Of a stretch of DNA of 21,525 nucleotides, positions 4,660 through 21,525 are shown piece by piece. The position numbers were made by a program, and so were the translations under genes. The stretch's first letter is position 1; the number at the start of each line of letters is the position of its first letter. The notes under the pieces were generated by a model. That model had not been told where the DNA came from. It was given only the letters and a program-made list of their open reading frames with translations, and made no database searches. The stretch is from a virus. Location: positions 1 through 21,525 of IMG/VR virus record IMGVR_UViG_3300010885_025520; one strand, 5' to 3'.

Positions 4660-5409
4660 TTAAAAAATTCCTGTTCCAGAAATAAACCATGTGTTTGCTG
4701 CAACCTGAATTAGTGTAGCCATACCATATGTAGTAACATTTCTTGAAGCGCTTATTGTATTACCAGCAAGATACATTGATACACCTGTGTTTGGAAATAC
4801 AGTTACATTAGCGCTCAATGATGTTCTAGAAATAATCATAATGGTCGAACCATTTGAAAATACTACATTTGATGTTGTTGGAATATACAATGTTGTATTT
4901 GATGATTGTGTGTAATAAATGTGCTTGCCTGCATCAGTTAACTGTAATGTATAATTTGTTGTTTGAGCATTTTGTGGAACTGTCTGCGCAGCTGCCGAAA
5001 TGTTTGTATTTTGGGTTGCATTCACGCCTTCTATAATAGCCATTCTAGTATTCTGGCTTACATCAGTACTTTCTATAACAGTCATTCTAGCATTTTGACT
5101 TACATCAACACCTTGAATTATAATAATATTATTAGATGCCGTGTTTGCAGTTGTTCTAGCAGACTGGTCAATCTGTGTATCTGAAACAATTGTATTGGCA
5201 TAATTATATGCAGCTTGTGCTTTTGCTTGTGCCGTAGCAGCTGATGATCTTGCAACAGAATCAAATGAACTACCAAATCCACCAGGTGTTACACCGTCAT
5301 GAATTGTTAAAAGTTTATTGGTTGTATCAATAATAATTTCACCTTCTGCACCTGTAATGCCAGAAATTATTGTATTTGCATATCGTTTAAATTGTAATGT
5401 TCTTGACAT
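4660..5409 (-). CDS. Small fibre-like protein inserted between gp15 and gp16
   Basis: This 249-residue protein has three visible parts. Residues 1-45 (LQFKRYANTIISG, then GEIIIDTTNKLLTIHDGVTP) resemble the N-terminal tropism-determinant-type domain seen at the start of many phage fibres. Residues about 55-137 are Ala/Asn-rich and then carry three copies of the 14-residue DVSQNxRMTIIEG-type repeat, at exact 14-residue spacing, that also fills the large fibre genes at 8259-21525. Residues about 150-249 form a beta-rich tip containing LQLTDAGKHIYYTQ and ending WFISGTGIF. It starts 1 nt after the gp15 stop and ends 15 nt before gp16, so it is cotranscribed with neck and terminase genes. It is probably a trimeric fibre or whisker; the attachment site is unknown. 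Confidence 0.8.
   Translation of the reverse strand: MSRTLQFKRYANTIISGITGAEGEIIIDTTNKLLTIHDGVTPGGFGSSFDSVARSSAATAQAKAQAAYNYANTIVSDTQIDQSARTTANTASNNIIIIQGVDVSQNARMTVIESTDVSQNTRMAIIEGVNATQNTNISAAAQTVPQNAQTTNYTLQLTDAGKHIYYTQSSNTTLYIPTTSNVVFSNGSTIMIISRTSLSANVTVFPNTGVSMYLAGNTISASRNVTTYGMATLIQVAANTWFISGTGIF
4999..5112 (-). repeat. Three 14-residue fibre repeats in the small fibre gene
   Basis: The encoded Gln of the SQN/TQN core recurs at residues 105, 119 and 133, a 42-nt period. It is the same repeat family as in the A genes but at a distant position in the gene order, which suggests shared ancestry or a shared structural role. Confidence 0.8.
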
Positions 5410-7418: not shown

Positions 7419-8192
7419 CTAGTTTAGGAAAAATTCTAATGGAGCACCGTATTGTGTTTCCATTTGTTCTTCCAACTTTTCAATTTCAGATACCGCTTCT
7501 TCATAAATTTTATCACCATTAAGTGTTACACCACCCGGCAATTGTAATCCTGAGAATTTTTTAAGATTGTTAGCCCACGTTCTTTTGATTAATGCTGTGG
7601 CATATTCTTTAATCCAACGGTCATTCCAAACCCTATTGTATAATCCAGCATCAATACAGGCATAAGCTTCGGCAACTACAATTGTACCAGATGGTGCTTC
7701 AGAAGCTCCCCAGGCCCAATCAATAAATAGTTTTTTCATATGACGATTAAAACGAATAGGAACTTCTCCAGTAAACATCATCTCTAATGAACGTAAATGC
7801 TGTTGTGTCAAAGTATAATTGACGTATGATGCGGAGGTGAAGTCGTAGAGTTCGTTTAGACGTAGTTGATATCTAAGGTCAAACATATTAATAGTTGCCT
7901 GAGAATCCTGAAGTGGAAATATGCGAGTAATACCAACAATGTCTAATGGAACATTTGCTGAATCTACTACATTTGTTAAATCAATATATTTGTGATTGAT
8001 GTCTGTGGCATCTAGACGCTTGATATAATAGACTTTTTGTAGACCATCAAAATGATAATCTTGCCAATATTGAATGGCGTCATCGATTCGGTCTTCCAAC
8101 TGGTCATCATCAACGTTGATTTCAATGACAGGAAAACCCAATCTTCTTAAACAATAATCCTTTAAACTGGCTCTACTGGTTACGGCTGGCAT
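7419..8192 (-). CDS. 13: Neck protein gp13
   Basis: This 257-residue protein (T4 gp13 has 309) starts MPAVTSRASLKDYCLRRLG and continues with FPVIEINVDDDQLEDRIDDA and IQYWQDYHFDGLQKVYY, a strongly conserved signature of T4-like gp13. Later blocks such as RFNRHMKKLFIDWAWG and the basic stretch near WIKEYATALIKRTWANNL also fit. gp13 and gp14 form the neck complex that seals the filled head and receives the tail. The ATG has an AGGAG site at good spacing and a perfect TATAAATA late element 21 nt upstream. It is probably the first gene of an operon running through gp17. Confidence 0.95.
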   Translation of the reverse strand: MPAVTSRASLKDYCLRRLGFPVIEINVDDDQLEDRIDDAIQYWQDYHFDGLQKVYYIKRLDATDINHKYIDLTNVVDSANVPLDIVGITRIFPLQDSQATINMFDLRYQLRLNELYDFTSASYVNYTLTQQHLRSLEMMFTGEVPIRFNRHMKKLFIDWAWGASEAPSGTIVVAEAYACIDAGLYNRVWNDRWIKEYATALIKRTWANNLKKFSGLQLPGGVTLNGDKIYEEAVSEIEKLEEQMETQYGAPLEFFLN

Positions 8193-8213: not shown

Positions 8214-8221
8214 TATTTATA
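8214..8221 (-). promoter_or_regulatory. T4 late promoter (perfect TATAAATA) before gp13
   Basis: Minus-strand TATAAATA is identical to the T4 late consensus. It lies 21 nt upstream of the gp13 ATG, with an AGGAG ribosome site between. It is the best late promoter in the window and probably drives gp13, gp14, gp15, the small fibre, gp16 and gp17. Confidence 0.8.
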
Positions 8222-8258: not shown

Positions 8259-10850
8259 TTAAGCCGCAAATGTACCTGTATTGGCACCTGGTAATCTACG
8301 AGCAAACCATACTGAACCTGCTTGTGGTGTAACCGCACCGTTACCGTTAGCAGCGGTCATTAGAATTTGCAAACTGGTTCCTGTACCGTTTCTTAGTAAC
8401 AATTTAAATCTAAAGTAATGAGTTACAGATGCCGCTAGAGAACCAGTAGCAAAGTTATAGGTAGCAGAAGTTGTAGTGGTCGTGCCTCTAAAGTTAATGT
8501 TAGTTAAAGCGGTAACCGAACCAGGAGGCGCAGCAATACCAGACAAAGGCGATTGTTCATAATCTACCACCATTAAAGTTGGCGCTGCGGAGTTAGTAAA
8601 TTGCCAAGTAACTGCACCGGCAGTAGAACCTTTTAAACCAAGTGCATAGATATCGATTTCATAAAACGCATTGGCTACTAATGGAATATTAGATGTTGTA
8701 CCAAAGAAGTTGGCTTGAGTACCAGTAATTGCATTACCCGCAACAAGCAATCGGAAAGTAGAGGTGGAAGGAATAAATCCACGGCCAATCACCGAATCAG
8801 GAGTAAAGTATGCAGCCGCACCGTCATACTCAATTACTCCGGTTTTTTGTGTTGTTAATAATGAACCAGTAATGAGTCCAATTGGATGGGTTGTTGTCGT
8901 ACCGGCGGCTAAGTTGGCTGTACCGCCAATATATACGTTACCAGCAATACCTGCACCACCAGAAACAACCAAAGCACCTAATGTGGTTGATGTTGACGTT
9001 GTTGTATTGGAAACTAACAAATAACCAGCAGAGTTAACTGTGATTACTGGACCAATGTTGGCTACAGCGTTATTAGCTTTAGCAAAAGATGCTTGGGAAT
9101 AAATTTGATTTGATGTTATAGCAGTATTACTATAATCCAGCCTTATGTTCTGACTTACATCAGTACCCTCAATAATGGTCATCCTGGAGTTTTGTGATGT
9201 ATCAACACCATCACTTATATCCATCCTAGTATTACTAAAATTCAATCTTACGTTTTGACTAGCATCAACACCAATAGTTACGTTAGCTTGATTGTAAGCA
9301 GCTTGTGCTAAAACATTGGCGGTGTTACCGGTATTTCTAGCAATTTGGTCTATTGATGCACCACTACTTGCTGTAGCATATGTTAATTCTTTTGTTGAAG
9401 CGTTATAGTAAATAACATTTGATGTGTTTGCGGTATCTCTACGAACAGGATTAATGTATAATCCTTGATTAATGCCATTTAAATTATCTGGTGAAGCATT
9501 AATAATTATTGAATTTGCTGGTTGATTTAATGTTCCAGCATTTGAACCTAATGCTATGGAATTATTACCTTGACTATCATTGCCTGCATTAAAACCAATT
9601 GCAACAGATTTTATTTGTTGATTCAATTGGCCTGCCATATGGCCAATTGCTACAGATTCAGCTCCTTGGCCTGAATTGCCTGCATAGTCACCAATTGCTA
9701 CAGCTTCAGTTCCTTGTGTGCTTGCGCCAGCATAAGGTCCTATTGCAACAGCGTAATCTTTTTGATTATTGAATCCTGCTTGATCACCAATTGCAACAGA
9801 AACATATCCTTGTGAAGTATATCCTGCGCCAGCTCCAACGGCAACACCTCCTTCACTTTGGCCAATATTACCTGCACCGAATCCAACTGCAACTGCTGAA
9901 GCGCCTTGATATTGTTTGCCAGCTTGAGAACCAATAGCTACAGAATTTGTATTTTGTGAATCGTTACCTGCTTCTTTTCCAATAGCAACTGCTGAAATAC
10001 CTTGAAAAGATTTTCCGCTGCTATCACCAATGGCAACTGCTGATATTTCTTGTAATTTTTGAAAAGTTATGAGTGTGTCGTCTATTAATGCAACATCAGG
10101 CAATGCTGAAATTATTATTATTGTACCTGTTCCATCATAAGCACCAATCGTATCAATCGTTTGGCCACTATTGAGTCCAGGCATAATAACTTTCATTCCT
10201 ACACGCAACGTAGAAGTTACATTTCCTGCAATGTATAACCATGTGTCTGGATTTGGCGAACCACTATATGGTGTTGATCCAAGATATGTTGTTGTAATTG
10301 TTACTCCTTGACCAGCTTGGTAACCAATAGCAACGTTACTACTTGTTTGTTTTAATTGTCCAGCCACTAAAGTATTGGCAACTACAACATTACCCGTTGT
10401 AGCATTGGCTGTTAGAACTACTTGACTATTTACTGCTAACAAATAGTCATATGCGTCTTTTGTTCCTTGCGCTAGTTGACCACCAGAAGAATACAAATAA
10501 GTTCCGTTGGCCACATCAAAAGGACCACCAGTATTAATAAATTTTGAAGAATTAATACCAAAGTCACCATAAATTAATGAAGCAGAACCTAAGTCATTAT
10601 TTAAGATGTAATCAGTTGATGACTGTGTACCGTTATTGGAGTTTTGATTAACAATCTGAGAATAACTATTGGTATTGCTTTGGAAAGATGCAACAATTCC
10701 TGTATCAGAGAATGTTAATCTTGATCCAACTTGAAGTGTTCCTGAAGCAGAAGAAACTGATGGAGATTGTGGAGAAACGCTACCCACCACCAACGTAGAG
10801 TCAACGTTAGCGGTACCAAATATTCGAGTTCCTGTTTGTAGTTTTGCCAT
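8259..10850 (-). CDS. A4: YadA-head-like repeat fibre protein with its own C-terminal domain
   Basis: An 863-residue fibre protein. Residues 1-23 (MAKLQTGTRIFGTANVDSTL) are the leader shared by all A proteins whose start is visible. A first VAIGYQAG repeat at about 172-187 is followed by an 83-residue insert. Residues 271-446 form eleven consecutive 16-residue units with consensus xVAIGxxAGxxxQ, like the trimeric left-handed beta-roll head of YadA-type adhesins. A linker with INPVRRDTANTSNVIYYNAS follows. Three QN coiled-coil repeats lie at about 527-582 and a GALVVSGGAGIAGNVYIGG module at about 625-643. The last 200 residues start at TGVIEYDGAAAYFTP and end in a beta-rich part (SVWFARRLPGANTG), probably the receptor-binding tip. 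It lacks the A-type C-terminal tag and has no B partner. No signal peptide or membrane anchor is present. Confidence 0.85.
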   Translation of the reverse strand: MAKLQTGTRIFGTANVDSTLVVGSVSPQSPSVSSASGTLQVGSRLTFSDTGIVASFQSNTNSYSQIVNQNSNNGTQSSTDYILNNDLGSASLIYGDFGINSSKFINTGGPFDVANGTYLYSSGGQLAQGTKDAYDYLLAVNSQVVLTANATTGNVVVANTLVAGQLKQTSSNVAIGYQAGQGVTITTTYLGSTPYSGSPNPDTWLYIAGNVTSTLRVGMKVIMPGLNSGQTIDTIGAYDGTGTIIIISALPDVALIDDTLITFQKLQEISAVAIGDSSGKSFQGISAVAIGKEAGNDSQNTNSVAIGSQAGKQYQGASAVAVGFGAGNIGQSEGGVAVGAGAGYTSQGYVSVAIGDQAGFNNQKDYAVAIGPYAGASTQGTEAVAIGDYAGNSGQGAESVAIGHMAGQLNQQIKSVAIGFNAGNDSQGNNSIALGSNAGTLNQPANSIIINASPDNLNGINQGLYINPVRRDTANTSNVIYYNASTKELTYATASSGASIDQIARNTGNTANVLAQAAYNQANVTIGVDASQNVRLNFSNTRMDISDGVDTSQNSRMTIIEGTDVSQNIRLDYSNTAITSNQIYSQASFAKANNAVANIGPVITVNSAGYLLVSNTTTSTSTTLGALVVSGGAGIAGNVYIGGTANLAAGTTTTHPIGLITGSLLTTQKTGVIEYDGAAAYFTPDSVIGRGFIPSTSTFRLLVAGNAITGTQANFFGTTSNIPLVANAFYEIDIYALGLKGSTAGAVTWQFTNSAAPTLMVVDYEQSPLSGIAAPPGSVTALTNINFRGTTTTTSATYNFATGSLAASVTHYFRFKLLLRNGTGTSLQILMTAANGNGAVTPQAGSVWFARRLPGANTGTFAA
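9105..9272 (-). repeat. QN coiled-coil repeats of A4
   Basis: Three encoded repeats have Gln cores at residues about 532, 553 and 567, giving spacings of 21 and 14. The 21-residue unit has the RLNFSN extension after QNV, as in the other A proteins. Confidence 0.75.
9513..10040 (-). repeat. Eleven tandem 48-nt units encoding a YadA-head-like solenoid
   Basis: Eleven units of exactly 16 codons each run without interruption. The core is V-A-I-G-x-x-A-G-x-x-x-Q, with minor changes such as VAVG, IALG and, in the first unit, SSG in place of xAG. Units differ at the DNA level, so the array is old rather than freshly expanded. YadA-type heads usually have units of 14-15 residues, so 16 is a variant. 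Confidence 0.9.
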
Positions 10851-10857
10851 GGTGTTC

Positions 10858-10865
10858 TATTTATT
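10858..10865 (-). promoter_or_regulatory. Late promoter-like element before A4
   Basis: Minus-strand AATAAATA fits NATAAATA. It is preceded by AACGAG, giving a 14-nt block (10858-10871) that is identical before A3. Only 7 nt separate it from the A4 ATG, so a transcript starting at the usual distance would have almost no leader. Confidence 0.5.
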
Positions 10866-10869
10866 CTCG

Positions 10870-13800
10870 TTATAGGTTGTATCTGTAGGCTAAAGCATTG
10901 TAGTTTTGGTTAATTTCTGATTGAGAGAGTTCTTTGTTGTACACTCGGACAACAGGAATAGATCCTTGCCAAGGACCTCCACCCCAATATCCCCAACCAA
11001 CTGCAACTGGTGCTACAGCTGCATTAGCATTTAAATCTGTACCCATTGTTATTGTATCTTTTAATACTCCGTTGGAATATATTTTTGAAGATTTTGTTGT
11101 ATAATTATAAGTGTGTACAATTTGATACCAAGTGTTTGTATTTGGTTGAAAAGCATAATGACCAGACGCATAAAATCCAACAACAAGATATCCTTGCATA
11201 TATCCCATACCATAACTACTGCCTGCTGTTGGTGTAGATCCTAGTAAATCAAATATTTGATAATTTGGAAATCCGCTCGGTGTAGCTGCTCCAGTATTTG
11301 CACCATTCACCCAAGCCTCTACTGTAAAATCACTCTGATACATTCCTACAGAATTGCCGGTTGCTGTATTAAATTTAATAGACGTTTCAGTTGGAGAAGT
11401 AGTTCCATCAAAAGTCATAGATCCATAATTACTTGATGAAACGGCAACATTACCATTAAGAGTTCCATGATTTCCTTTACCACTAGTATCATACCAAGTA
11501 TTACCACCATTATAACTAGCAGGATTGGCTGCATCAAGATGTAATGTTAAATTTGCCGTAACGATTGGTGGATTCCAAGTGACTTCATCAAACTCATTGG
11601 TAACTGCAATTGTACCACCATTAAGTGTTTTTGAGCTTAATAAATTAATCGTATTTGCTGTATATGTCGTTGCAGTATTTCCAAGTTCTAATTGTGGACC
11701 AAAAAGAGTCATTGTATTACCTGCTTTTCCATATCCATAACCCCCTTGCCAAAAAGCTATGGATATTGCATTTTGCGTTGCATCGGTAAGTAAAGTAGCA
11801 CTACATCTATAATAACCATTATTTTCTGGTATCATGGTAGCATATATGTAATTTGGAAAAACTCCAGCAAAGGTTTGACCAGTACCAAAATTAAAATTTG
11901 TAAATTGTGTAGCATCGTTTGGAAAGAATGTGTTATTACCTGATACCATGGCTATTCCCGGAACATCCGTTCCTTTAGCTGAAATTGATATTGTATAATT
12001 TGTATTAGGAGTAACAGGAATTGAATTTTGTTTTATATTAGGATATATTGCATTATATGCAAATTTACTTGCTGTATAATTTCCATTAGGATCTAATTCT
12101 GTTGTTGATATTACATTAGCACCATTTATAATCCAAGGAGATACTGTAAGATTTTCTGTACTTACAAATAAATTTTTATTTGGATTGGGAGCATACGAAG
12201 TTGTAGTCGTATTATATTCTAACTGAGCGCCCCAAATGTATATTCCATAACCTGGAGTTCCAGCATATTGGTCTGATCCAGAATTATTAATAATTATTAC
12301 ATGATAAAGAAGGTTACTTCCTGTATTGAGTGTTTTAAAAGTGATACTGCATCTATACCATCCATTACCAACTGAAATTATTGAAGGAGTTCCTACCGAA
12401 CTATATTGTACTGTACCGCTTACTAAATTAAATTGAGCATATGCACTACTACCAGCTACATTTAATGTAAGTGCATTTCTTTCACCGGCTTTGGCATATA
12501 CGGATAATGTATACATTTGGTTAGGAATAAAAGAACTTGGATTTTGAGCAACTCCATAAAATGTGGTAGGTGAACCTGCCGTTTCTTGCAATTTTGTTGC
12601 GGTCGATGATCCATTAGGAGCAATAATTGTATTTGTTGTTAGTATTGAACTTACTAAACCCCAAGGAGATAAATTAAATTGTTGAGAATTTATTAATAAA
12701 TTTTTATTAGTATTAACATAAGTTACTTCATCAAAATTATTAATAGTTAACACATCACCTGAATTGTCTGTGCGAGTATTAAATAAATTGATTGCAGTAT
12801 TAGGTGTAGAAGTTGCAATAAAAGGACTTAAAGTATTACCTAATTGTAATTGTGGACCCCAAATATAAATTCCAGAAGTTCCATCTCCTGTGTTTGCTAA
12901 TCGATATGACCAGTTATCTGAACGACCACCACCGCCACCAATTGATTGTGCAACAAAACTCCAAGATGCTCTGTACCAACCGTTACCTACATTTTGTAAT
13001 AGTGGTCTTAAAACAACTCCTGTTTGTACTGGTGTTGTACCTGCTACAAAATCAAAAATTGTTCCATCAGCATTATTTCGAATTCTAAGAGTATTAAATT
13101 CTGCCGGTTTAAAAAACAATGATTGAGTATATACAAATCCTTGAGTAATTTGTCCATAACCATTTTGTTGTGATAATAATTCACTATTAGTTATATTAGG
13201 ATTAGCACCTGTATTTGCAACAAACTTATATGCAGTCATTGAACCATCGGGAGCAGTAGTTGCTGATGTTAATGTTACAGAATTATTTCCTCCCGTATAA
13301 CTATGACTCCAATTGGCATTATTCCAATCTGATGTGTATCTATGGAGTTGTGTGTTTGCTCGATTGATTGGTCCAATTGAATCTGTTGCAACATAATTAC
13401 TGGCTGATAAACCATATTCTAGTTGTTGACCCCACAAATACACTCCCGAAGTACCATTACCTGTATAATTTGTGGCATATGGACTATCTTGAATTAAAAA
13501 TAAAGTACCTAATAAAGTTGATTGGTCAGCAGATCCGGATGCAGCTATTCTCCACCAACCATTACCAGCCGGAGTAACACTATAACCTAATCCATTTGGA
13601 TTTGTATTTACACTAGATGTTACACCTGTAATTAAATTTATATTAACAGAAACCAAATTTACTGCCCCAATAAATCTTAAATTTAATTGAGACCTTTCGG
13701 CCGCCTTGGCATAAAAACTAAATGTTGCAGTTTGTCCAGCGGTAAATACAGAACGGTATTGTGAAAACCAATGTTCTGCAGTTGTAGAATCTTCAATAAA

Positions 13801-14754
13801 TTTTTGTGCAGTATAAGTGCCGTCAGGTGCAGTTGTTGCTGTTGTGAATGTTGTTGAACAATTATTTTTTGGCCAATTACTAGGATTTGAATAATCACTA
13901 GAAGAAATTAATAAATTTGGATTAGAACTTTTTGTTGTAGTAGAATATGCAATAGCACCACCACTTGAAGGATTATAACTCACTTCATCAAATTGGGCCG
14001 AATTACTTGCAAAATTAAATCTGTCCAATAACGCATTAGCATTTTGTCGTTGCTCTGCAGCCGTTAATGTTCGGTTGTACATTAGTACTGCAGCAATTTT
14101 ACCTTGAAAACCACGACCACCTGGATATCCACCAGAACCCAAGAAATAAGACCAGTTTGTTGGCCAACTCGCCGATGAAGAATTCTTAGCACCACCCAAT
14201 ACATTCCAGCCGGCCGGAATATTAAAAGTGCTTGTGTATAAAGTATTGTTATTGTAATAATTAACAACTCCGGTTCCTGAAGCCGGCAAACTACCATTGG
14301 CCCAATCGTTATTATTTCCAGTATCGGCAAGATTCCATGGAATTTGTCCTGCATTAAATCTTAATGAACGATCCAATGATGATGATGCATTACCTGTAGA
14401 AATAAGTCCAACTAAACCTGATATATAACCATAATCTGGTTGAAACAGTATTGTAACATCTTGATAGTCCTGTGATGCTGTTGAACCAATATAATTTAAA
14501 TCGGATGCTATGGCAAAATTAAAATAACTTTGTGTACCAGCACTAACAAAAGATACGTTTCCATTGATTGTACCGTGAGCACATTGACCACTTAAATCAT
14601 ACCAAGTATTTCCTGTGCCAGGATAGCTGGCAGGATTATTAGCATTTAAATATAAAATCAATCCATTGGTAACAACATTATCAGGAATCTTAGTTGGTAA
14701 ACCTGTAAAATATGTTCCTGCCGAAGTAATCCTGCTCACTATATTATTAGCCAT
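10870..14754 (-). CDS. B3: giant multidomain lectin-like fibre tip protein
   Basis: A 1294-residue protein. The leader MANNIVSRITSAG matches other B proteins. Residues about 27-245 form a LamG/concanavalin-like domain (GLILYLNANNPASYPG, NTWYDLSG, ending IAAVLMYNRTLTAAEQ). Four related modules of about 175-185 residues follow at about 278-457, 468-650, 683-857 and 858-1035. Each has N-L-L/F-type starts (weakest in the second), a 'TAPDGxxTAxKF' or similar block, a 'YAKAxERxxLxL' type strand, 'GNGWYRxS' and a 'GxYxWGxQLExG' end; these resemble carbohydrate-binding beta-sandwiches common in phage fibres. Residues about 1063-1294 are a second LamG-like domain. FDEV motifs sit at about 255, 674 and 1055, at module joints. 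The ATG is 2 nt after the A3 stop. Sugar binding on the host surface is inferred. Confidence 0.85.
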   Translation of the reverse strand: MANNIVSRITSAGTYFTGLPTKIPDNVVTNGLILYLNANNPASYPGTGNTWYDLSGQCAHGTINGNVSFVSAGTQSYFNFAIASDLNYIGSTASQDYQDVTILFQPDYGYISGLVGLISTGNASSSLDRSLRFNAGQIPWNLADTGNNNDWANGSLPASGTGVVNYYNNNTLYTSTFNIPAGWNVLGGAKNSSSASWPTNWSYFLGSGGYPGGRGFQGKIAAVLMYNRTLTAAEQRQNANALLDRFNFASNSAQFDEVSYNPSSGGAIAYSTTTKSSNPNLLISSSDYSNPSNWPKNNCSTTFTTATTAPDGTYTAQKFIEDSTTAEHWFSQYRSVFTAGQTATFSFYAKAAERSQLNLRFIGAVNLVSVNINLITGVTSSVNTNPNGLGYSVTPAGNGWWRIAASGSADQSTLLGTLFLIQDSPYATNYTGNGTSGVYLWGQQLEYGLSASNYVATDSIGPINRANTQLHRYTSDWNNANWSHSYTGGNNSVTLTSATTAPDGSMTAYKFVANTGANPNITNSELLSQQNGYGQITQGFVYTQSLFFKPAEFNTLRIRNNADGTIFDFVAGTTPVQTGVVLRPLLQNVGNGWYRASWSFVAQSIGGGGGRSDNWSYRLANTGDGTSGIYIWGPQLQLGNTLSPFIATSTPNTAINLFNTRTDNSGDVLTINNFDEVTYVNTNKNLLINSQQFNLSPWGLVSSILTTNTIIAPNGSSTATKLQETAGSPTTFYGVAQNPSSFIPNQMYTLSVYAKAGERNALTLNVAGSSAYAQFNLVSGTVQYSSVGTPSIISVGNGWYRCSITFKTLNTGSNLLYHVIIINNSGSDQYAGTPGYGIYIWGAQLEYNTTTTSYAPNPNKNLFVSTENLTVSPWIINGANVISTTELDPNGNYTASKFAYNAIYPNIKQNSIPVTPNTNYTISISAKGTDVPGIAMVSGNNTFFPNDATQFTNFNFGTGQTFAGVFPNYIYATMIPENNGYYRCSATLLTDATQNAISIAFWQGGYGYGKAGNTMTLFGPQLELGNTATTYTANTINLLSSKTLNGGTIAVTNEFDEVTWNPPIVTANLTLHLDAANPASYNGGNTWYDTSGKGNHGTLNGNVAVSSSNYGSMTFDGTTSPTETSIKFNTATGNSVGMYQSDFTVEAWVNGANTGAATPSGFPNYQIFDLLGSTPTAGSSYGMGYMQGYLVVGFYASGHYAFQPNTNTWYQIVHTYNYTTKSSKIYSNGVLKDTITMGTDLNANAAVAPVAVGWGYWGGGPWQGSIPVVRVYNKELSQSEINQNYNALAYRYNL

Positions 14755-14756
14755 AA

Positions 14757-14765
14757 TTATCCAAA
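14757..14765 (-). promoter_or_regulatory. A3-B3 junction: ribosome site within the last codons of A3
   Basis: The minus strand reads TTTGGATAA, then 2 nt, then ATG. GGA is the final glycine codon of A3 and lies 5 nt before the B3 start, so it can serve as Shine-Dalgarno. The same arrangement occurs at the other two A-B junctions. Confidence 0.6.
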
Positions 14766-15248
14766 AATTAAATCAAAACTATTGAATGTTGAGTTGTATG
14801 TTGTATACACTACAGAAATATTATTTGCATTGGCAAAACCAACACGACCAGAAACATATATGCTATTGGCTGCTGTAATACCAGAAGTGCCAACTGATAT
14901 AGCATTAGAAACAACTAATGTGTTATTAGAAGCAAAGAATTGTAAGTTGATTGTATTACTTAAATTACCGGAAGTATTTGCAACAATAATTGTATTGGGT
15001 AAATAACCACTTGTGGGTGCACCAGCGGTTAATTGTTTTGTGCCATCAACAAAAGTTATACCATTACCTGAACCAGTAATAACCATATTACCTGAATAAA
15101 GATTACCTGTAATTCCTGCACCACCAATAACTTGTAAAGAACCAGTTACATTACTGGTAGCATTATTAGGCGTAATATTACCCACAACTAAAACGCTTTG
15201 TACGTTAGCCGTTCCGTAAATTTGAGTATTTGATTTTAATAGTGCCAT
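14757..15248 (-). CDS. A3: minimal A-type fibre base protein
   Basis: At 163 residues this is the shortest A protein. It has the shared leader (MALLKSNTQIYGTANVQSVL), the 'TGSLQVIGGAGITGNLYSGN' module, 'GNGITFVDGTKQLTAG' and the A-type C-terminal tag (SIYVSGRVGFANANN, then YTTYNSTFNSFDLIFG). It has none of the QN repeats that fill A1 and A2. It therefore looks like A2 reduced to both ends, and shows what an A protein minimally needs. It is followed after 2 nt by B3, the largest B protein, suggesting that a short base carries a very large tip. The last codons TTTGGATAA include the likely ribosome site for B3. Whether it is an ancestral form or a deletion cannot be told here. Confidence 0.8.
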   Translation of the reverse strand: MALLKSNTQIYGTANVQSVLVVGNITPNNATSNVTGSLQVIGGAGITGNLYSGNMVITGSGNGITFVDGTKQLTAGAPTSGYLPNTIIVANTSGNLSNTINLQFFASNNTLVVSNAISVGTSGITAANSIYVSGRVGFANANNISVVYTTYNSTFNSFDLIFG

Positions 15249-15255
15249 AGTATCT

Positions 15256-15263
15256 TATTTATT
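15256..15263 (-). promoter_or_regulatory. Late promoter-like element before A3
   Basis: Minus-strand AATAAATA fits NATAAATA and is preceded by AACGAG, identical to the block before A4. It is 7 nt from the A3 ATG and lies between the B2 stop and A3. Confidence 0.5.
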
Positions 15264-15268
15264 CTCGT

Positions 15269-16153
15269 TTAATAACCATATGGAGATTTAAGTGCATTAA
15301 AGTTTTGAGTAATTTCGTCCAATGATAATGCTCTGTTGTATACACCAACTATAGAAATACTACCAGGAAACCATTCTGATGCAACAGGATCACCACCAAC
15401 ATAAAAAGGATGTTGTGCTGCTAAAGAACCTGAATTTGTCATAGTAGTATTCAATACACCATTAACATAATAATAAAAATTTGAATTATTTTTAACAATG
15501 CAAATATTGTACCAAACTCCAGTTGTAAGACCGGTAGGTAACATTGAAGTTTGGCCGCCAGACAAAAAATATTCAAAAGTAAAATTTTGATCTAGTTTAA
15601 CAAAATCTAATATACTTCCTCTATTTCCTACCGCACAAGCTGTGTAACCAAAACTGTTTGATTTTATCCAAATATTCCATGTAAATGAAGTTGTACTTGT
15701 ATAGATTGGCTGAGTGTATCCAGTATTGGCCGCATATGTTGGTGAACCACTAAAATCAAAATACCCTGTATTTGCAGAATTAAATCTTGGTGATACCGAA
15801 TTTGTTCCATTACTGGTAAAATTGGCGTTATAACCACTACCACTTATATCATACCAAGTATTACTTGAAAGGTTATAATTACTAGGATTTGTAGCATTTA
15901 AATATAATACTAATCCTGAGGTTACTACTAAATTTAAAGTAATTTCATCAAAATAATTTGAAACTTGTAGAGTACCAGTACTTAATAATCTTTGTGGAAC
16001 TCCCGATAAATTAACTTCATCAAAATAATTTGAAACTTGTAGAGTACCAGTACTTAATAATCTTTGTGGAACTCCCGATAAATTAACTTCATCAAATTGT
16101 CCTTGGACATATTGTATACCTGTTGATGTAAGCCTGCTCACTAAATTAGCCAT
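15269..16153 (-). CDS. B2: single-LamG lectin-like fibre tip protein
   Basis: A 294-residue protein. The B leader MANLVSRLTSTGIQY is followed by three FDEV/FDEI motifs, the spacers between them being two identical 24-residue copies. Residues about 77-294 form one LamG/concanavalin-like domain with SGLVLYLNATNPSNY, SNTWYDISGSG, a WNIWIKSN strand, GVWYNICIVKNN, NFYYYVNGVLN and the closing SISIVGVYNRALSLDEI. This fold often binds glycans or proteins, and sugar binding here is inferred. It is the simplest B protein: leader, linker and one tip domain. The ATG lies 3 nt after the A2 stop. The duplicated linker could lengthen the reach of the tip. Confidence 0.85.
   Translation of the reverse strand: MANLVSRLTSTGIQYVQGQFDEVNLSGVPQRLLSTGTLQVSNYFDEVNLSGVPQRLLSTGTLQVSNYFDEITLNLVVTSGLVLYLNATNPSNYNLSSNTWYDISGSGYNANFTSNGTNSVSPRFNSANTGYFDFSGSPTYAANTGYTQPIYTSTTSFTWNIWIKSNSFGYTACAVGNRGSILDFVKLDQNFTFEYFLSGGQTSMLPTGLTTGVWYNICIVKNNSNFYYYVNGVLNTTMTNSGSLAAQHPFYVGGDPVASEWFPGSISIVGVYNRALSLDEITQNFNALKSPYGY
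15945..16088 (-). repeat. Perfect 72-bp tandem duplication in B2
   Basis: The units 15945-16016 and 16017-16088 are identical over 72 bp, with the first 8 bp of a third unit following. They encode 24-residue linkers that start at FDE. Identity at every base, synonymous sites included, points to a recent duplication by slippage or recombination, although a collapsed or expanded assembly repeat is possible. Confidence 0.92.
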
Positions 16154-16156
16154 AAT

Positions 16157-16165
16157 TTATCCAAA
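16157..16165 (-). promoter_or_regulatory. A2-B2 junction: ribosome site within the last codons of A2
   Basis: The minus strand reads TTTGGATAA, then 3 nt, then ATG. GGA lies 6 nt before the B2 start. Confidence 0.6.
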
Positions 16166-18202
16166 ATATGTATCGATACTATTTAATGTTGAGTTATAAG
16201 TTGTGTATGCTAAACTTGTTGATGTGTTTCCAAATCCAACTCTGTTACCCACATACACACTATTGGCCACTCCAACTCCACCAGAAACTTGTAGAGCATT
16301 ATTAGAGTTTGAATATGACGAATATGTATTAGCAACAATTAATTGATTTGCAATTGAACCACCAGAGAAACCACCAGTAGAAGCAATTGTTAATGTATTA
16401 GATGTACCAACTGTTGATAAAGTAATACCCGATCCAGCAACCAAAGTTAATGGTGATATGGAAGTATTTGCAATTAAATCTGGTTGACCAGAAACTTTAA
16501 TTGTGGAAAAACTATTGGATGAAGAACCGGAACCAGAAACAGCAGCAGTTGTAATACTAGTTATACGACCATTAGATGCTACAGTAACAACAGGAACCAA
16601 TGTTGAACTACCATAAGAACCTGCTATTGGTGTAGTATATGTTACATCGGTGTTAGCTAATGCTTGAACAGAAACAATATTGGCATTTTGACTTGCATTA
16701 ACACCATCTGAAATGGTCATACGAGTATTACTGAAATCTAACCTTACGTTTTGGCTTAAATCAGTATTTTCTATAATCGTCATTCGACCATTTTGACTTA
16801 CATCCGTACCTTCGATGATGGTCATTCTAGAATTCTGACTTACATCCACACCTTGTACAATCGTAATAGCGGTGTTGCTATAATCCAACCTTACGTTTTG
16901 GCTAACATCAGTACCAAATAGAATTACTACGTTAGCGTTTGCTGAATTTAATCCTGCTTGTAAATAAGCAGAATTGGCATTAGCAGTTATAAGTCCACCA
17001 GCAGTTACATTGGCTTGATTATATGCCGATTGCATTTTACCATCGGTAGCAACACCATTAGCATTGGCAGTAATCAGTCCACCAGCAGTTACGTTTGCTT
17101 GTGCATATGCAGCAGTAGAATAATTATAAAGTTCTAATCCATTAACAACTGCCGTGGTAGCAATTAAGTTACCTTTGAAATAACTAGCATTTAAGTTTGC
17201 TTTAGCAAATGATGCATCATTAATATCAACGTTATTAGTTACGTCAACTTCAGGAGTATATCCTTTGAATACATAAAATTCTTTGGTGACGGAATCTCTT
17301 ATGATACCAGAATGAGCATTAACCACACCATCGTTATAATGTGCAGCAAATCCAATATCTTTAGTATCACTTGTGTAATTACCAATACCCAAAACAATTA
17401 ATGGATCGGCTACGGCTAACTGTTGTACATTTTGTGAACCAATATTTCCTGTAATGATTAGATTACCAGAAACAATAAGGTCTTGACTGATTGTTACGTT
17501 ACCGGATACAGTTTGATTTTGAGCACCAGTTAAAGATAACTTATTATTAATATTGGTGTTCTGGGTTAAGTCCACACCTTCAATGATGGTCATACGAGCA
17601 TTTTGGCTAGTATCAACACCTTGTACAATAGTTATAGCCGAATTACTGTAATCCAATCTTACGTTTTGGCTAGTATCAGTACCTTCGATAATAGTCATGC
17701 GACTATTTTGACTTACATCTGTACCTTCGATGATGGTCATACGAGCATTTTGAGTAACATCTACACCTTGTGTGTATATGGTATTAGCATTAGCAGTATT
17801 AAGACCACCTTGAATATAAACAATATTGGCATTAGCGGTATTTAATCCGCCTTGAAGATATGCACTATTGGCGTTAGCAGTGATTACATAAGAAAATAAT
17901 AAAGTTGAATTGGCATTTTCAGAAGCTAAAGCACCTTGAAGATATATTGTATTTGCTACAGAAGAACCAGCAGTAGTTTGTCTGGTACCATCAGCAAAAG
18001 TAATACCATTACCAGCTGCGGATGATCCAGAAATTACCAGGTTTCCTGTGTAAGTATTACCAAGAATTCCAACTCCACCAATAACCACCAAGGAACCTGT
18101 TGTGTTACTTGTAGAATTTACAGGCGTAATATTACCCACCGTCAATATATTATCAACGTTTGCGGTACCGTATACTCTTGTTCCTGTTAGTAGTTTTGCC
18201 AT
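16157..18202 (-). CDS. A2: coiled-coil-repeat fibre protein
   Basis: A 681-residue protein. The leader MAKLLTGTRVYGTANVDNIL and the GSLVVIGGVGILGN module (about 36-60) match A3. Two 14-residue Ala/Asn units (GGLNTANANxxYxQG) lead into five QN repeats at about 145-219. A middle domain at about 222-320 contains ADPLIVLGIGNYTSD, DIGFAAHYNDGVVNAHSG and EFYVFKGYTPEVD, a type seen in fibres of T4-like marine phages as I recall. Residues about 323-425 are Ala/Asn-rich, followed by five more QN repeats at 430-506. The remainder is beta-rich with ASNGRITSI and SGITLSTVGTSNTLTI. It ends in the A tag SVYVGNRVGFGNT, then YTTYNSTLNSIDTYFG. It is probably a trimeric shaft carrying B2, which starts 3 nt later. 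Confidence 0.85.
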   Translation of the reverse strand: MAKLLTGTRVYGTANVDNILTVGNITPVNSTSNTTGSLVVIGGVGILGNTYTGNLVISGSSAAGNGITFADGTRQTTAGSSVANTIYLQGALASENANSTLLFSYVITANANSAYLQGGLNTANANIVYIQGGLNTANANTIYTQGVDVTQNARMTIIEGTDVSQNSRMTIIEGTDTSQNVRLDYSNSAITIVQGVDTSQNARMTIIEGVDLTQNTNINNKLSLTGAQNQTVSGNVTISQDLIVSGNLIITGNIGSQNVQQLAVADPLIVLGIGNYTSDTKDIGFAAHYNDGVVNAHSGIIRDSVTKEFYVFKGYTPEVDVTNNVDINDASFAKANLNASYFKGNLIATTAVVNGLELYNYSTAAYAQANVTAGGLITANANGVATDGKMQSAYNQANVTAGGLITANANSAYLQAGLNSANANVVILFGTDVSQNVRLDYSNTAITIVQGVDVSQNSRMTIIEGTDVSQNGRMTIIENTDLSQNVRLDFSNTRMTISDGVNASQNANIVSVQALANTDVTYTTPIAGSYGSSTLVPVVTVASNGRITSITTAAVSGSGSSSNSFSTIKVSGQPDLIANTSISPLTLVAGSGITLSTVGTSNTLTIASTGGFSGGSIANQLIVANTYSSYSNSNNALQVSGGVGVANSVYVGNRVGFGNTSTSLAYTTYNSTLNSIDTYFG
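16685..16915 (-). repeat. Second QN repeat block of A2
   Basis: Encoded Gln cores are at residues 435, 456, 470, 484 and 505, giving spacings of 21, 14, 14 and 21. All are multiples of seven. Confidence 0.85.
17546..17770 (-). repeat. First QN repeat block of A2
   Basis: Encoded Gln cores are at residues 151, 165, 179, 200 and 214, giving spacings of 14, 14, 21 and 14. The 21-residue unit again has RLDYSN after QNV. Confidence 0.85.
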
Positions 18203-18227
18203 TTTTAAATTATTCTTTTAATTTGGA

Positions 18228-18235
18228 TATTTATG
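18228..18235 (-). promoter_or_regulatory. Late promoter-like element before A2
   Basis: Minus-strand CATAAATA fits NATAAATA. It directly follows the B1 stop codon and leaves 25 nt before the A2 ATG. Only a weak purine-rich ribosome site (AAAAGAA) is visible in the leader. Confidence 0.55.
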
Positions 18236-19909
18236 TTATGTAATGGAAGAAACTTCATCAAATTGATTGACCAATATATTACCAGTATTCAAAACTTTTT
18301 GTGGCGCAGTACTAAATGGAGTAGATGTATTTAATGTTACGCCACCTGTTACTGTAATTGTATTATTATTACTACTGTTATCCACAAAAGGTTCTGCTGC
18401 AAAATTATTTAATAGTAATACTGTATTTGCTACTGTTGGCAATGGACCTGTTGGGGGAGTAAAAACTACTGTATTCGCCGTAGTACTGGATGTTTGATAA
18501 GCTGTCGGTATTGAACCATTAATTATTCTTAAATTTGAAATATTGCCGTTAGTATATGTTGAAGCATTTAAATTACTTGCAATACCCATATATATATTTC
18601 CAGAACCAGAACTTAAAGAAGTTGCATAAGTTTGTGAACTAGCTAAAACTCCGTTAACAAAAGCTCTACATACATTGCTACTATCTCTAGTAAATGCTAA
18701 ATGTGTCCAAGTGCCTGTTTTTATAGGTCCATTTATAAAATTGTTTAAAGTATAATTTATTATTAAATAAGCAGATTGTCCGCCAGATAAAGATGCCATT
18801 CCCCATTGTAAATTGGCGCCACCAGCACTAAGATTAAATGCCCAAGTTGGTCCAGTTGAACCATAAGCCCAATTTCTATCGGCAATAACAAACGCATTAG
18901 TTAAATTTGTTGGATTAATCCAAGCTTCAGCACACATTGGAGTACCAGCAATAAAATCAAAACCAGTACTATAAGGTACGGTTAAATAACCACCACTTCC
19001 ATTAAATTTTAAGCTTTGAGAACTCATACTCACTTCATCAAATCCATTAGAAATCATTACGACACCATTACTTGTTGTGCTAGTAATAATATTTGTGTTA
19101 CTTCCTAATACAGGATTATTATTGGTGTTTGCTAAATTAATTGAAGTGTTTCCTGGAAAATAAAATGGACCAAGTGTATTAAATGTTGGTGTACCAGTTC
19201 TGAGTATTGTATTATTATTTCCACTAGAATCACCAAAAGGATTTTGTGAATTTGTTAATAATAATAATTTAGTATTTGCTATAGCAGTTAGTGGAGCAGT
19301 AGGAGGAATAAAATTATTATCGTATATACTTGAACCAACCACTATTCTATAATTAGAAATATATCCAGGAAGATAATAATTATAAGTAACTAAATTTGAG
19401 TGAGCTATTCCATAAGGTGTATAATCTGTCCAACCAGTTGCATTGGTTGTTGTTCCAATACTATTACCATTAACATAAATTGTAAATACTCCAGCAGATG
19501 TTCTAGTAACAGCAACATGATACCAAGTGTTTAAAGAAAAAGCGTATGAAAATGTAATATCTAATGCACCATTGTTGGCATAAATACGAGCCCCAGTCCA
19601 AGAAGATATTGTTCCTGTTAATTGAAATTCAAATCCATTATTACTTCCAACTCCACTAGTAGCATGACTTGAAAATATTTCAGCTGTATAAAAACCACTG
19701 GAAACATAACCATATCGTGTTAAATAAACCCAGCATTCAATGGTAAATGGATTACCTGTTAAATTTCCAATATTGGTTTTGGCCACATCAAAATAATCTG
19801 TTGCTGCTGTGCGATTAAACGCAACACTTCCAGAATTAAGGCTCACTTCATCAAAACCACCTGATGATTGAAATACTCCGTTAGAAGTTAATCGAGTTAC
19901 TGTAGGCAT
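18236..19909 (-). CDS. B1: two-domain LamG lectin-like fibre tip protein
   Basis: A 557-residue protein. The leader MPTVTRLTSNGVFQSSGGF is followed by FDEV at about 19. Two LamG/concanavalin-like domains follow, at about 19-250 and 289-530. Domain 1 has NPFTIECWVYLTRYGY, NTWYHVAVTRTSAGVFTIYV and VGSSIYDNNFIPPTAPL. Domain 2 has TPMCAEAWINPTNL, GTWTHLAFTRDSSNVCRAFV and FTPPTGPLPTVANTVLLL. Both end with a 'LLLxxxxxPFxDxSxNNNTI' calcium-site-like or closing strand, so they arose by duplication or are the same subfamily. Further FDEV motifs lie at about 290 and 550. The ATG is 3 nt after the A1 stop. Host-surface glycan binding is inferred. Two domains here, against one in B2 and six modules in B3, show modular growth. 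Confidence 0.85.
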   Translation of the reverse strand: MPTVTRLTSNGVFQSSGGFDEVSLNSGSVAFNRTAATDYFDVAKTNIGNLTGNPFTIECWVYLTRYGYVSSGFYTAEIFSSHATSGVGSNNGFEFQLTGTISSWTGARIYANNGALDITFSYAFSLNTWYHVAVTRTSAGVFTIYVNGNSIGTTTNATGWTDYTPYGIAHSNLVTYNYYLPGYISNYRIVVGSSIYDNNFIPPTAPLTAIANTKLLLLTNSQNPFGDSSGNNNTILRTGTPTFNTLGPFYFPGNTSINLANTNNNPVLGSNTNIITSTTSNGVVMISNGFDEVSMSSQSLKFNGSGGYLTVPYSTGFDFIAGTPMCAEAWINPTNLTNAFVIADRNWAYGSTGPTWAFNLSAGGANLQWGMASLSGGQSAYLIINYTLNNFINGPIKTGTWTHLAFTRDSSNVCRAFVNGVLASSQTYATSLSSGSGNIYMGIASNLNASTYTNGNISNLRIINGSIPTAYQTSSTTANTVVFTPPTGPLPTVANTVLLLNNFAAEPFVDNSSNNNTITVTGGVTLNTSTPFSTAPQKVLNTGNILVNQFDEVSSIT

Positions 19910-19912
19910 TCA

Positions 19913-19921
19913 TTATCCAAA
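19913..19921 (-). promoter_or_regulatory. A1-B1 junction: ribosome site within the last codons of A1
   Basis: The minus strand reads TTTGGATAA, then TGA, then ATG. GGA lies 6 nt before the B1 start. Confidence 0.6.
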
Positions 19922-21525
19922 AATTGTGTCAAGAGAATTTGTGTTTGCGTTATATACCTGATAGACTACTAAAATATTATTGGCATTGGCAAAACCAAAA
20001 CGGTTACTTACATACACATTAGAAGTTGCCAATGTATTATTAGAAGCAGTAAAGTAAACATTGCTATTACTCAAATAACCAGAAGCATTGGCAAATATAA
20101 TACTATTTGCAGTATATAAAACAGCAGAAGCTCCAGTATTTGCTTTATCGAATGCAGCTTGTGCTAATACGGTACCTGTGTTAGCTTGATTATAAGCAGA
20201 TGACATTTTACCATCGGTAGCAGCCATACTAGTGTTTTGGCTCGCTTCAATACCAAATAATACTACTACGTTAGCATTAGCTGAAGCCATCGCACCTTGT
20301 AACAATATAGTATTAGCGTTTTGACTTACATCTACACCTTCTATAATGGTCATCCTAGCATTTTGGCTAGTATCTGTACCTTGAATTATGGCAATAGCCG
20401 TGTTGCTATAATCTAATCTTACGTTTTGGCTTAAATCTGTATTTTCTATTACAGTTAATCTGGTGTTTTGAGTTGTATCAACACCTTGAATAATAGTAAT
20501 AGCGCTATTACTATAATCGAGTCTAACATTTTGGTTTGAATCTGTATTTTCTATAATAGTCATGCGACTATTTTGAGTAACATCTACACCTTGTGTGTAT
20601 ACAGTATTTGCTCTTGCTGAAGCATCTGTTGCTGCACCAGAAGCCGCAGTTGATTGTGTTGTACCATCGGGGAATACTATACCACTCAATGTTGTGTATA
20701 TTGTTGGTATCGAAATATTGGCAACAACTAATGTGTTGTTAGCATTATAAAAAGATATGCCATTGGTATTGGAAAGATAACCAGTAGTATTGGCAAAAAT
20801 TACGGAGTTTGCTAAGTAACCAGAAGCAGTAATACCACCAGTACCTGTAATAGCAGTATTAACAATCGATGTTATACGACCATTTGCTGCAAGAGTAATT
20901 ACAGGAACATAAGTTGTGTTACCATATACACCAGCAGTTGCAGTTAATGTAGTATAATCGGTGTTAGCTAACACTTGTAATGAAATAATATTTGCATTAG
21001 CTGAATTTAATCCACCAGAAGTTACATTGGCCTGATTGTATGCGGACTGCATTTTACCGTCAGTAGAAGAAATATTGGTGTTCTGAGTAAGGTCTACTCC
21101 TTGAATAATAGTAACTACAGCATTACTATAATCTAACCTTACATTCTGACTAACATCAGTACTTTCAATAACAGTAAGTCTGGTATTTTGAGTTACATCA
21201 GTACCTTCTATTACTGTCAACCTGGTATTCTGTGTAGTATCAACTCCAACAGTTACGTTAGCTTGCGCATAAGCAGAAGAAGAATAAGAACTTAAATCTA
21301 TACCATTAACAACTGCTGTGGTAGCAATTAAATTTGATTTTACATAACCAGCATTTAAGTTTGCTTTGGAAAATGATGCATCATTAATATCTATGTTGTT
21401 AACTGCATCTACTTCTGGTGTGTATCCTTTGAATACATAAAATTCTTTAGTACCGGAATCTCTAATAATACCAGCATGAGCATTAACGCCATCATTATAG
21501 TGTGCTGCAAAACCAATATCTTTAG
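19913..21525 (-). CDS. A1: coiled-coil-repeat fibre protein (5' end outside the window)
   Basis: The frame is open from the right edge to the TAA at 19913, giving about 536 visible residues and no visible true start (a TTG near 21220 is internal). The first residues, KDIGFAAHYNDGVNAHAG and EFYVFKGYTPEVDAVNN, match residues about 281-325 of A2, so roughly 280 residues may be missing. Next come INDASFSKANLNAGY, VVNGIDLSSYSSSAYAQAN and a block of four QN repeats. A beta-rich part with AANGRITSIVNTAITGTG and a second block of seven QN repeats follow. The end carries the A tag NVYVSNRFGFANANN, then NANTNSLDTIFG. It is closely related to A2 but has a different repeat count, and B1 follows after 3 nt. 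A trimeric shaft carrying B1 is inferred. Confidence 0.82.
   Translation of the reverse strand, partial: KDIGFAAHYNDGVNAHAGIIRDSGTKEFYVFKGYTPEVDAVNNIDINDASFSKANLNAGYVKSNLIATTAVVNGIDLSSYSSSAYAQANVTVGVDTTQNTRLTVIEGTDVTQNTRLTVIESTDVSQNVRLDYSNAVVTIIQGVDLTQNTNISSTDGKMQSAYNQANVTSGGLNSANANIISLQVLANTDYTTLTATAGVYGNTTYVPVITLAANGRITSIVNTAITGTGGITASGYLANSVIFANTTGYLSNTNGISFYNANNTLVVANISIPTIYTTLSGIVFPDGTTQSTAASGAATDASARANTVYTQGVDVTQNSRMTIIENTDSNQNVRLDYSNSAITIIQGVDTTQNTRLTVIENTDLSQNVRLDYSNTAIAIIQGTDTSQNARMTIIEGVDVSQNANTILLQGAMASANANVVVLFGIEASQNTSMAATDGKMSSAYNQANTGTVLAQAAFDKANTGASAVLYTANSIIFANASGYLSNSNVYFTASNNTLATSNVYVSNRFGFANANNILVVYQVYNANTNSLDTIFG
20222..20590 (-). repeat. Second QN repeat block of A1
   Basis: Seven encoded Gln cores have spacings of 14, 21, 14, 21, 14 and 28 residues. 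The last unit is stretched by an Ala/Asn-rich piece (LLQGAMASANANVVVLFG) but keeps the multiple of seven. Confidence 0.85.
21071..21247 (-). repeat. First QN repeat block of A1
   Basis: Four encoded Gln cores have spacings of 14, 14 and 21 residues, the long unit again following QNV. Confidence 0.85.

Follow-up and report, generated by a model that had tools for sequence, protein, structure and literature searches.

Does a row of seven genes that alternates between two protein families encode several separate fibres, or a single fibre built in segments? The row lies in a 21.5-kb fragment of a viral contig (the window, i.e. the whole stretch of 21,525 nucleotides that was analysed) from a T4-like phage, in which a gp13-like Ad2 protein and a T4-type neck protein were recognised by PHROG/Pfam models, and the ORFs after the neck proteins are read, by sequence and order, as gp15, gp16, gp17 (terminase), gp18 (sheath) and gp19 (tube). 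All seven fibre ORFs are carried by the minus strand, directly upstream of gp13, in the order A1, B1, A2, B2, A3, B3, A4, then gp13; the counterpart position in T4, upstream of gene 13, is held by gene 12 and wac. Coordinates and gaps given in an earlier sequence-only reading of this DNA agree with the ORF list, including its A-to-B spacing of 2-3 nt (3 nt for A1-B1, 3 nt for A2-B2 and 2 nt for A3-B3); the B-to-A gaps are 33 nt (B1-A2), 20 nt (B2-A3) and 19 nt (B3-A4). The features are as follows.

19913-21523, minus: A1, tagged rod that opens the row; 536 aa lie inside the window, whose edge cuts off the 5' end (ORF list)
19916-20017, minus: A tag of A1, C-terminal 34 aa (alignment and HMM over 97 distinct tagged genes)
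18236-19909, minus: B1, proposed joint protein, 557 aa, two Laminin_G_3 domains (ORF and domain search)
19841-19903, minus: B1 repeat 1 (repeat scan)
19028-19090, minus: B1 repeat 2 (repeat scan)
18248-18301, minus: B1 repeat 3 (repeat scan)
18228-18234, minus: ATAAATA, late-promoter-like, before A2 (motif scan)
16157-18202, minus: A2, middle rod, 681 aa, leader and tag (ORF and alignment)
18059-18202, minus: A leader of A2 (alignment)
16160-16258, minus: A tag of A2 (alignment)
15269-16153, minus: B2, proposed joint protein, 294 aa, contiguous three-repeat core and one Laminin_G_3 (ORF, domain and repeat scan; AlphaFold confidence low)
15938-16144, minus: B2 three-repeat core, repeats at 16082-16144, 16010-16066 and 15938-15994 (repeat scan)
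15256-15262, minus: ATAAATA 7 nt before A3 (motif scan)
14757-15248, minus: A3, short middle rod, 163 aa, leader and tag (ORF and alignment)
15105-15248, minus: A leader of A3 (alignment)
14760-14861, minus: A tag of A3 (alignment)
10870-14754, minus: B3, proposed joint protein, 1294 aa, Laminin_G_3 at residues 1136-1282 and several other domains (ORF and domain search)
11578-14742, minus: B3 repeats, the first apparently split (14701-14742 and 13978-14007; the pieces score only 4.0 and 4.3), the second 12721-12780, the third 11578-11640
10858-10864, minus: ATAAATA 7 nt before A4 (motif scan)
8259-10850, minus: A4, last rod, leader without tag, AIGxxAG repeats, own C-terminal domain (ORF and alignment)
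10770-10850, minus: A leader of A4 (alignment)
8214-8220, minus: ATAAATA before gp13 (motif scan)
7419-8192, minus: gp13-like neck protein (Ad2 head-tail adaptor), where the fibre row ends (PHROG/Pfam)

The common leader that had been noticed in the A family was found at the N-terminus of A2, A3 and A4 (23-48 residues, consensus MAxLxxGTRxYGTANV...), two of the pairs among these proteins being 73.9% and 65% identical in their first 23 residues. The N-terminus of A1 itself lies outside the window; its nearest relative, a tagged gene of 1375 aa in L255/L089 (39% identity over 636 aligned columns), has no A leader. At the other end, A1, A2 and A3 carry a C-terminal tag of about 34 aa, VYVxNRVGFxN...VYNxxTNSLDTIFG, whose last residue is directly followed by the stop codon, and alignment of the C-termini showed A4 to be without it. 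Of 148 tags, 144 lie at distance 0 from the C-terminus and the others at distance 1. Between leader and tag, IIEGxDxSQNxRM repeats were found in A1 and A2, and A4 has AIGxxAG repeats as well. A1-A3 gave no Pfam match and no strong PHROG match, and full-length A2 matched nothing when searched against phages.

The strict A-B-A-B-A-B-A alternation was borne out by the ORFs and by other viral contigs. Loci anchored on gp13, which were picked without reference to fibres, provided the first independent cases: in L046, L069 and L021, tag, B and leader follow one another upstream of gp13. Such parts were found near gp13 in only 5 of 67 gp13-selected groups, so that a location close to gp13 is not usual. 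Scanning with the tag gave 79 loci and scanning with the leader gave 77. A B gene lies within −8 to +15 nt after most of the 97 distinct tagged genes; a B recognised by HMM comes next in 85 of 96 such genes, a strong preference for the A-B adjacency by which the sequence-only reading had proposed to judge its claim, and, by eye, most of the remaining 11 also have B next, either adjoining or beyond a small ORF. Gene maps of 84 groups repeatedly show tag, B and leader in this order, and the rule (a tagged gene, then B, then a leader gene) is kept in about 80 distinct viral-contig groups; this conservation excludes chance as the source of the alternation. When only the minimal form of B (described below) was used for the scan, all 19 checked loci had a tag upstream and a leader downstream, many of these loci being also among the contigs from the earlier tag and leader scans.

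The rule was then tabulated for distinct genes with complete ends. Tagged genes located after a recognised B have the leader in 13 of 13 cases, compared with 0 of 66 among tagged genes without a recognised B before them, plus L199, where by eye the leader follows a divergent B (Fisher p = 4 × 10−14, related sequences being counted). Leader genes that precede B have the tag in 14 of 14 cases, and those that do not precede B in 0 of 94 (p = 7 × 10−18, with the same counting of related sequences). Judged from the sequences, a tag means that B comes next, and a leader means that B comes before. Because first-in-row tagged genes have no leader and leader genes without a B next to them are never tagged, the leader appears to behave as a socket for B and not as a virion anchor. 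First-in-row genes begin in many unrelated ways, with Mtd_N in 5 of 10 tested, as one would expect if leaders docked on B and the virion held the first rod only. No ORF fusing tag to B or B to leader was found among the contigs, and inheritance of the gene order as a block could yield part of the rule. For metagenomic T4-like phages, the rule provides an aid to the annotation of fibre genes.

Two features of these neighbourhoods were seen in passing. In L106 (10116), L131 (10121) and L136 (10119), a small ORF (MIKIDF...HLxxxHGLTDxEIEAMKQQR) lies between tag and B, and B in these loci starts with MADRYWVGGSGTWD or similar. The genes before many first-in-row rods end in IDGGTY, IDNGFF or DGGxF (L255 5964-6185 and 6185-10312, L259, L118, L103), and some of them overlap the next gene by 1 nt; these ends may be a second docking tag, on the virion side.

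The B family had been described as tip-like, with a common leader bearing an FDEV motif. The motif is present there, but it belongs to a repeat some 20 residues long, RLTSTGTLxVxxxFDEV, that occurs about three times in each of B1, B2 and B3, not just in the leader. Genes located directly between tag and leader genes comprise 89 distinct B, including B1-B3, or 74 after removal of redundancy; of the latter, 62 have exactly three repeats, 8 have two, 4 have one and none has four, at a threshold giving 0.011 false hits per shuffled protein. At this threshold B1 and B2 have three repeats, whereas B3 is weaker, with only two. Among these B genes, the length ranges from 71 to 1343 aa, so that the number of repeats does not track length. 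In many phages B is minimal, i.e. 71-78 aa that amount to the core alone, with no adhesin, between a tagged and a leader gene. Larger B have extra domains before repeat 1, between repeats or after repeat 3: the repeats of B1 (residues 3-23, 274-294 and 537-554) are arranged around two Laminin_G_3 domains, in B2 a single such domain follows an unbroken core, in B3 the first repeat is apparently split by an inserted domain, and the B of one relative has a glycine-rich domain. The lectin-like domains of the sequence-only reading are thus Laminin_G_3 (PF13385), two in B1 and one each in B2 and B3 (118, 68.8 and 57.9 bits, respectively; cut-off 27.6). Virion proteins with Laminin_G_3-like domains (phrog_3545, 8510, 24074 and 5939) match these inserted domains and not the three-repeat core.

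A 73-aa B modelled by AlphaFold with 47 aligned cores was all beta, with strands at residues 6-8/13-16/19-21, 34-36/39-41 and 52-54/59-62/65-67, forming matching sets, one for each repeat (pLDDT 86.8, pTM 0.71; only two of the five core models were confident and three were poor); for B2, the confidence was too low for use. Given the repeats, we infer a threefold symmetry of the core. No relative of the core was found in the PDB by sequence or by fold, a BFVD search returned one uncharacterised 74-aa phage protein, and no Pfam family covers minimal B. Since the conserved part of B is the three-repeat core, often alone and placed between tagged and leader genes, B looks more like a connecting piece, on which lectins may be mounted, and the description as a tip family does not hold up well.

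The window has seven sense-strand copies of ATAAATA, six of which lie just before A2, A3, A4, gp13, gp18 and gp19 and none before B; the late-promoter element previously reported before A2, A3, A4 and gp13 is accordingly there. Of 113 leader genes, 61 have ATAAATA in front of them; of 101 B genes, none has. TATTTATA, which was also considered as the late promoter, proved too strict a pattern, ATAAATA being the common element. In about 43 of these 61 leader genes the element lies only 4-8 nt upstream of the start codon, and before A3 and A4 the distance is 7 nt. As T4-like spacing would put the transcript start almost at the ATG, leader genes with the element this close may be expressed as leaderless late mRNAs.

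The arrangement of rod, connector and rod has a counterpart in the knee of the T4 long fibre, where gp35 is a monomer between the gp34 and gp36 trimers (PMC3004832; PMC5537660), genes 34 and 35 are co-transcribed and gene 36 has its own late promoter (PMC3004832). The two systems share the gene order proximal rod - connector - distal rod, a near-zero gap between rod and connector (in T4, 8 nt for 34-35 and 62 nt for 35-36) and a late promoter of the distal rod, which is here represented by ATAAATA sequence elements only. The window repeats this layout three times, whereas T4 has one knee per fibre, and T4 gp35 (about 372 aa) has no detected three-repeat core, unlike B. Among 48 families compared by hhalign, the leader matched the gp36 N-terminus at rank 1 (E = 1.3 × 10−5); the B repeat matched the gp35 C-terminus weakly, at rank 3 (E = 0.011), and the tag matched the gp34 C-terminus weakly, at rank 4 (E = 0.023), some of the better-ranked families being divergent tags. 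Each of these three pairs scored better than any off-diagonal pair, and HMM searches with the T4 gp34 C-end, gp35 and the gp36 N-end did not detect the expected genes at significant scores. Homology with the T4 knee is therefore no more than suggested; because only the leader match ranks first and the HMM searches were empty, we limit the wording to an analogy, namely that the A/B joint probably works like the T4 knee. That B is a monomer that bends the fibre between trimers is likewise only suggested by the three-repeat core. For the baseplate anchoring of the T4 proximal rod through its N-terminus, the candidate counterpart is the Mtd_N start of 5 of 10 first-in-row genes, the start of A1 lying beyond the window. 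The meeting of the gp35 monomer with the gp34 trimer, and the end-to-end joining of rods, have been named as future work (PMC5537660); a 73-aa three-repeat joint with its short tag and leader would be a small, testable model of such a gp34-gp35-type junction.

The S16/T2-type gp38 adhesin is also a single chain with three equivalent elements 120 degrees apart that binds a trimer end, and it carries variable glycine-rich recognition domains (PMC6851490). B resembles it in the three elements per chain and, in one relative, in the glycine-rich domain. However, the elements of gp38 are three helices with Trp and gp38 ends the gp37 fibre, whereas B has three beta repeats and a rod gene comes next. 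The identification of B as such an adhesin (three-helix attachment, polyglycine sandwich) was rejected given the all-beta model and the lack of a PDB fold match.

Twelve loci have two successive joints, and in these the types of tag, B and leader all follow the joint and not the phage, with identities of 0.57-0.75 within a joint across phages vs. 0.35-0.42 between the joints of one phage. Such joint-bound types would be expected for specific interfaces and equally for an old, ordered chain that was merely inherited. Genes with leader as well as tag, which a chain of several joints requires, come from the window and just 11 sequence groups, most of them apparently a single phage family, besides L134 and L150; the multi-joint case therefore rests on few lineages. 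In the window phage itself, the joints need not be specific, as similar tags and similar leaders recur across A1-A4. L181 and L219 count as close relatives because they share sequence with contigs whose gp13 is 86-87% identical. Both L181 and L219 carry two tag-B-leader sets separated by a 955-aa gene; thus, even near relatives differ in how many joints they have and in how these are linked.

Taken as a whole, the pattern makes it somewhat probable that the products of the seven genes form a single tail fibre built in segments, with rods linked by three joints. The A proteins would be trimeric rods, and in each joint the three-repeat core of B would meet the tag at the C-terminus of one rod and the leader at the N-terminus of the following one, so that the genes would be arranged as their products are in the fibre: A1 (virion side) - B1 - A2 - B2 - A3 - B3 - A4 (far tip). 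B would probably be one chain whose three repeats give a near-threefold symmetry fitting the rod trimers (cf. monomeric gp35). The leader would dock on B, only the first rod would dock on the virion, and A4 would be the end tip. The lectin domains around the repeats could form sugar-binding heads at each joint and would then let one fibre touch several surface sugars. The gene order, the rule for tag, B and leader, the three repeats and the joint-bound types of two-joint phages are observations; the physical contacts, the trimer and monomer states, the direction of the chain and the binding of sugars are inferences. If this chain of rods exists, phages lengthen and re-equip fibres by adding joint units, and the row suggests a way in which the fibres that recognise bacteria may become longer and more varied. 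The broader proposition, that a previously undescribed three-part joint (tag, three-repeat B and leader) is widespread in uncultured T4-like phages and can be repeated into multi-joint fibres with lectin heads at each joint, two-joint phages having distinct plug-and-socket-like sets, we consider evenly balanced.

The sequence-only reading had instead proposed three separate fibres, each an A shaft with a B tip, and a self-contained A4, with the leader anchoring each A on the virion. The leaders common to A2-A4, the nearly touching and probably co-translated A-B pairs and the lectin-like domains of B1-B3 are all compatible with this arrangement, and L181/L219, with their two sets, suggest that several fibres per virion are possible. 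However, the leader occurs only after B, first-in-row genes lack it (0/66, i.e. 66 of 67 with L199 included) and begin with something else on the virion side, e.g. Mtd_N, and B can be reduced to a 73-aa core; hence separate fibres fit less well and appear unlikely. The chain of linked rods is favoured over them because it accounts for leaderless first rods, tagless last rods and adhesin-free B.

Joints might also be interchangeable, any B joining any rods into fibres of variable length and composition, as would be allowed by the likeness among the window's three tags and among its three leaders; given that two-joint relatives keep distinct tag, B and leader types for each joint, which speaks for specific pairing, we regard free exchange as rather improbable. 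Finally, B could stay outside the virion and help the rod encoded before it as a chaperone or assembly factor, in the way that T4 gp38 serves gp37. The location of B directly after its partner gene and the small size of minimal B would suit such a function, whereas large B with inserted Laminin_G_3 or glycine-rich domains are unlike a chaperone and a leader gene always follows B, making this role very improbable.

A search of isolated phages (50,697 records) by tblastn with the A2 leader region and two minimal B found nothing credible, although short low-complexity queries may be masked, and no report of such an A-B fibre array was found among the open-access papers searched. As far as these searches reach, the tag-B-leader connector is thus found in many uncultured aquatic phages and in no isolated phage searched.

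Mtd_N, which starts several first-in-row tagged genes and also protein F in the window, belongs to the virion-side end only, and tag, B and leader are unrelated to it. Between gp15 and gp16 (4660-5409), the window encodes a 249-aa protein with Mtd_N and coiled-coil repeats as in the A rods, and longer versions of this protein are found at the equivalent place in L013, L026, L047 and L260.
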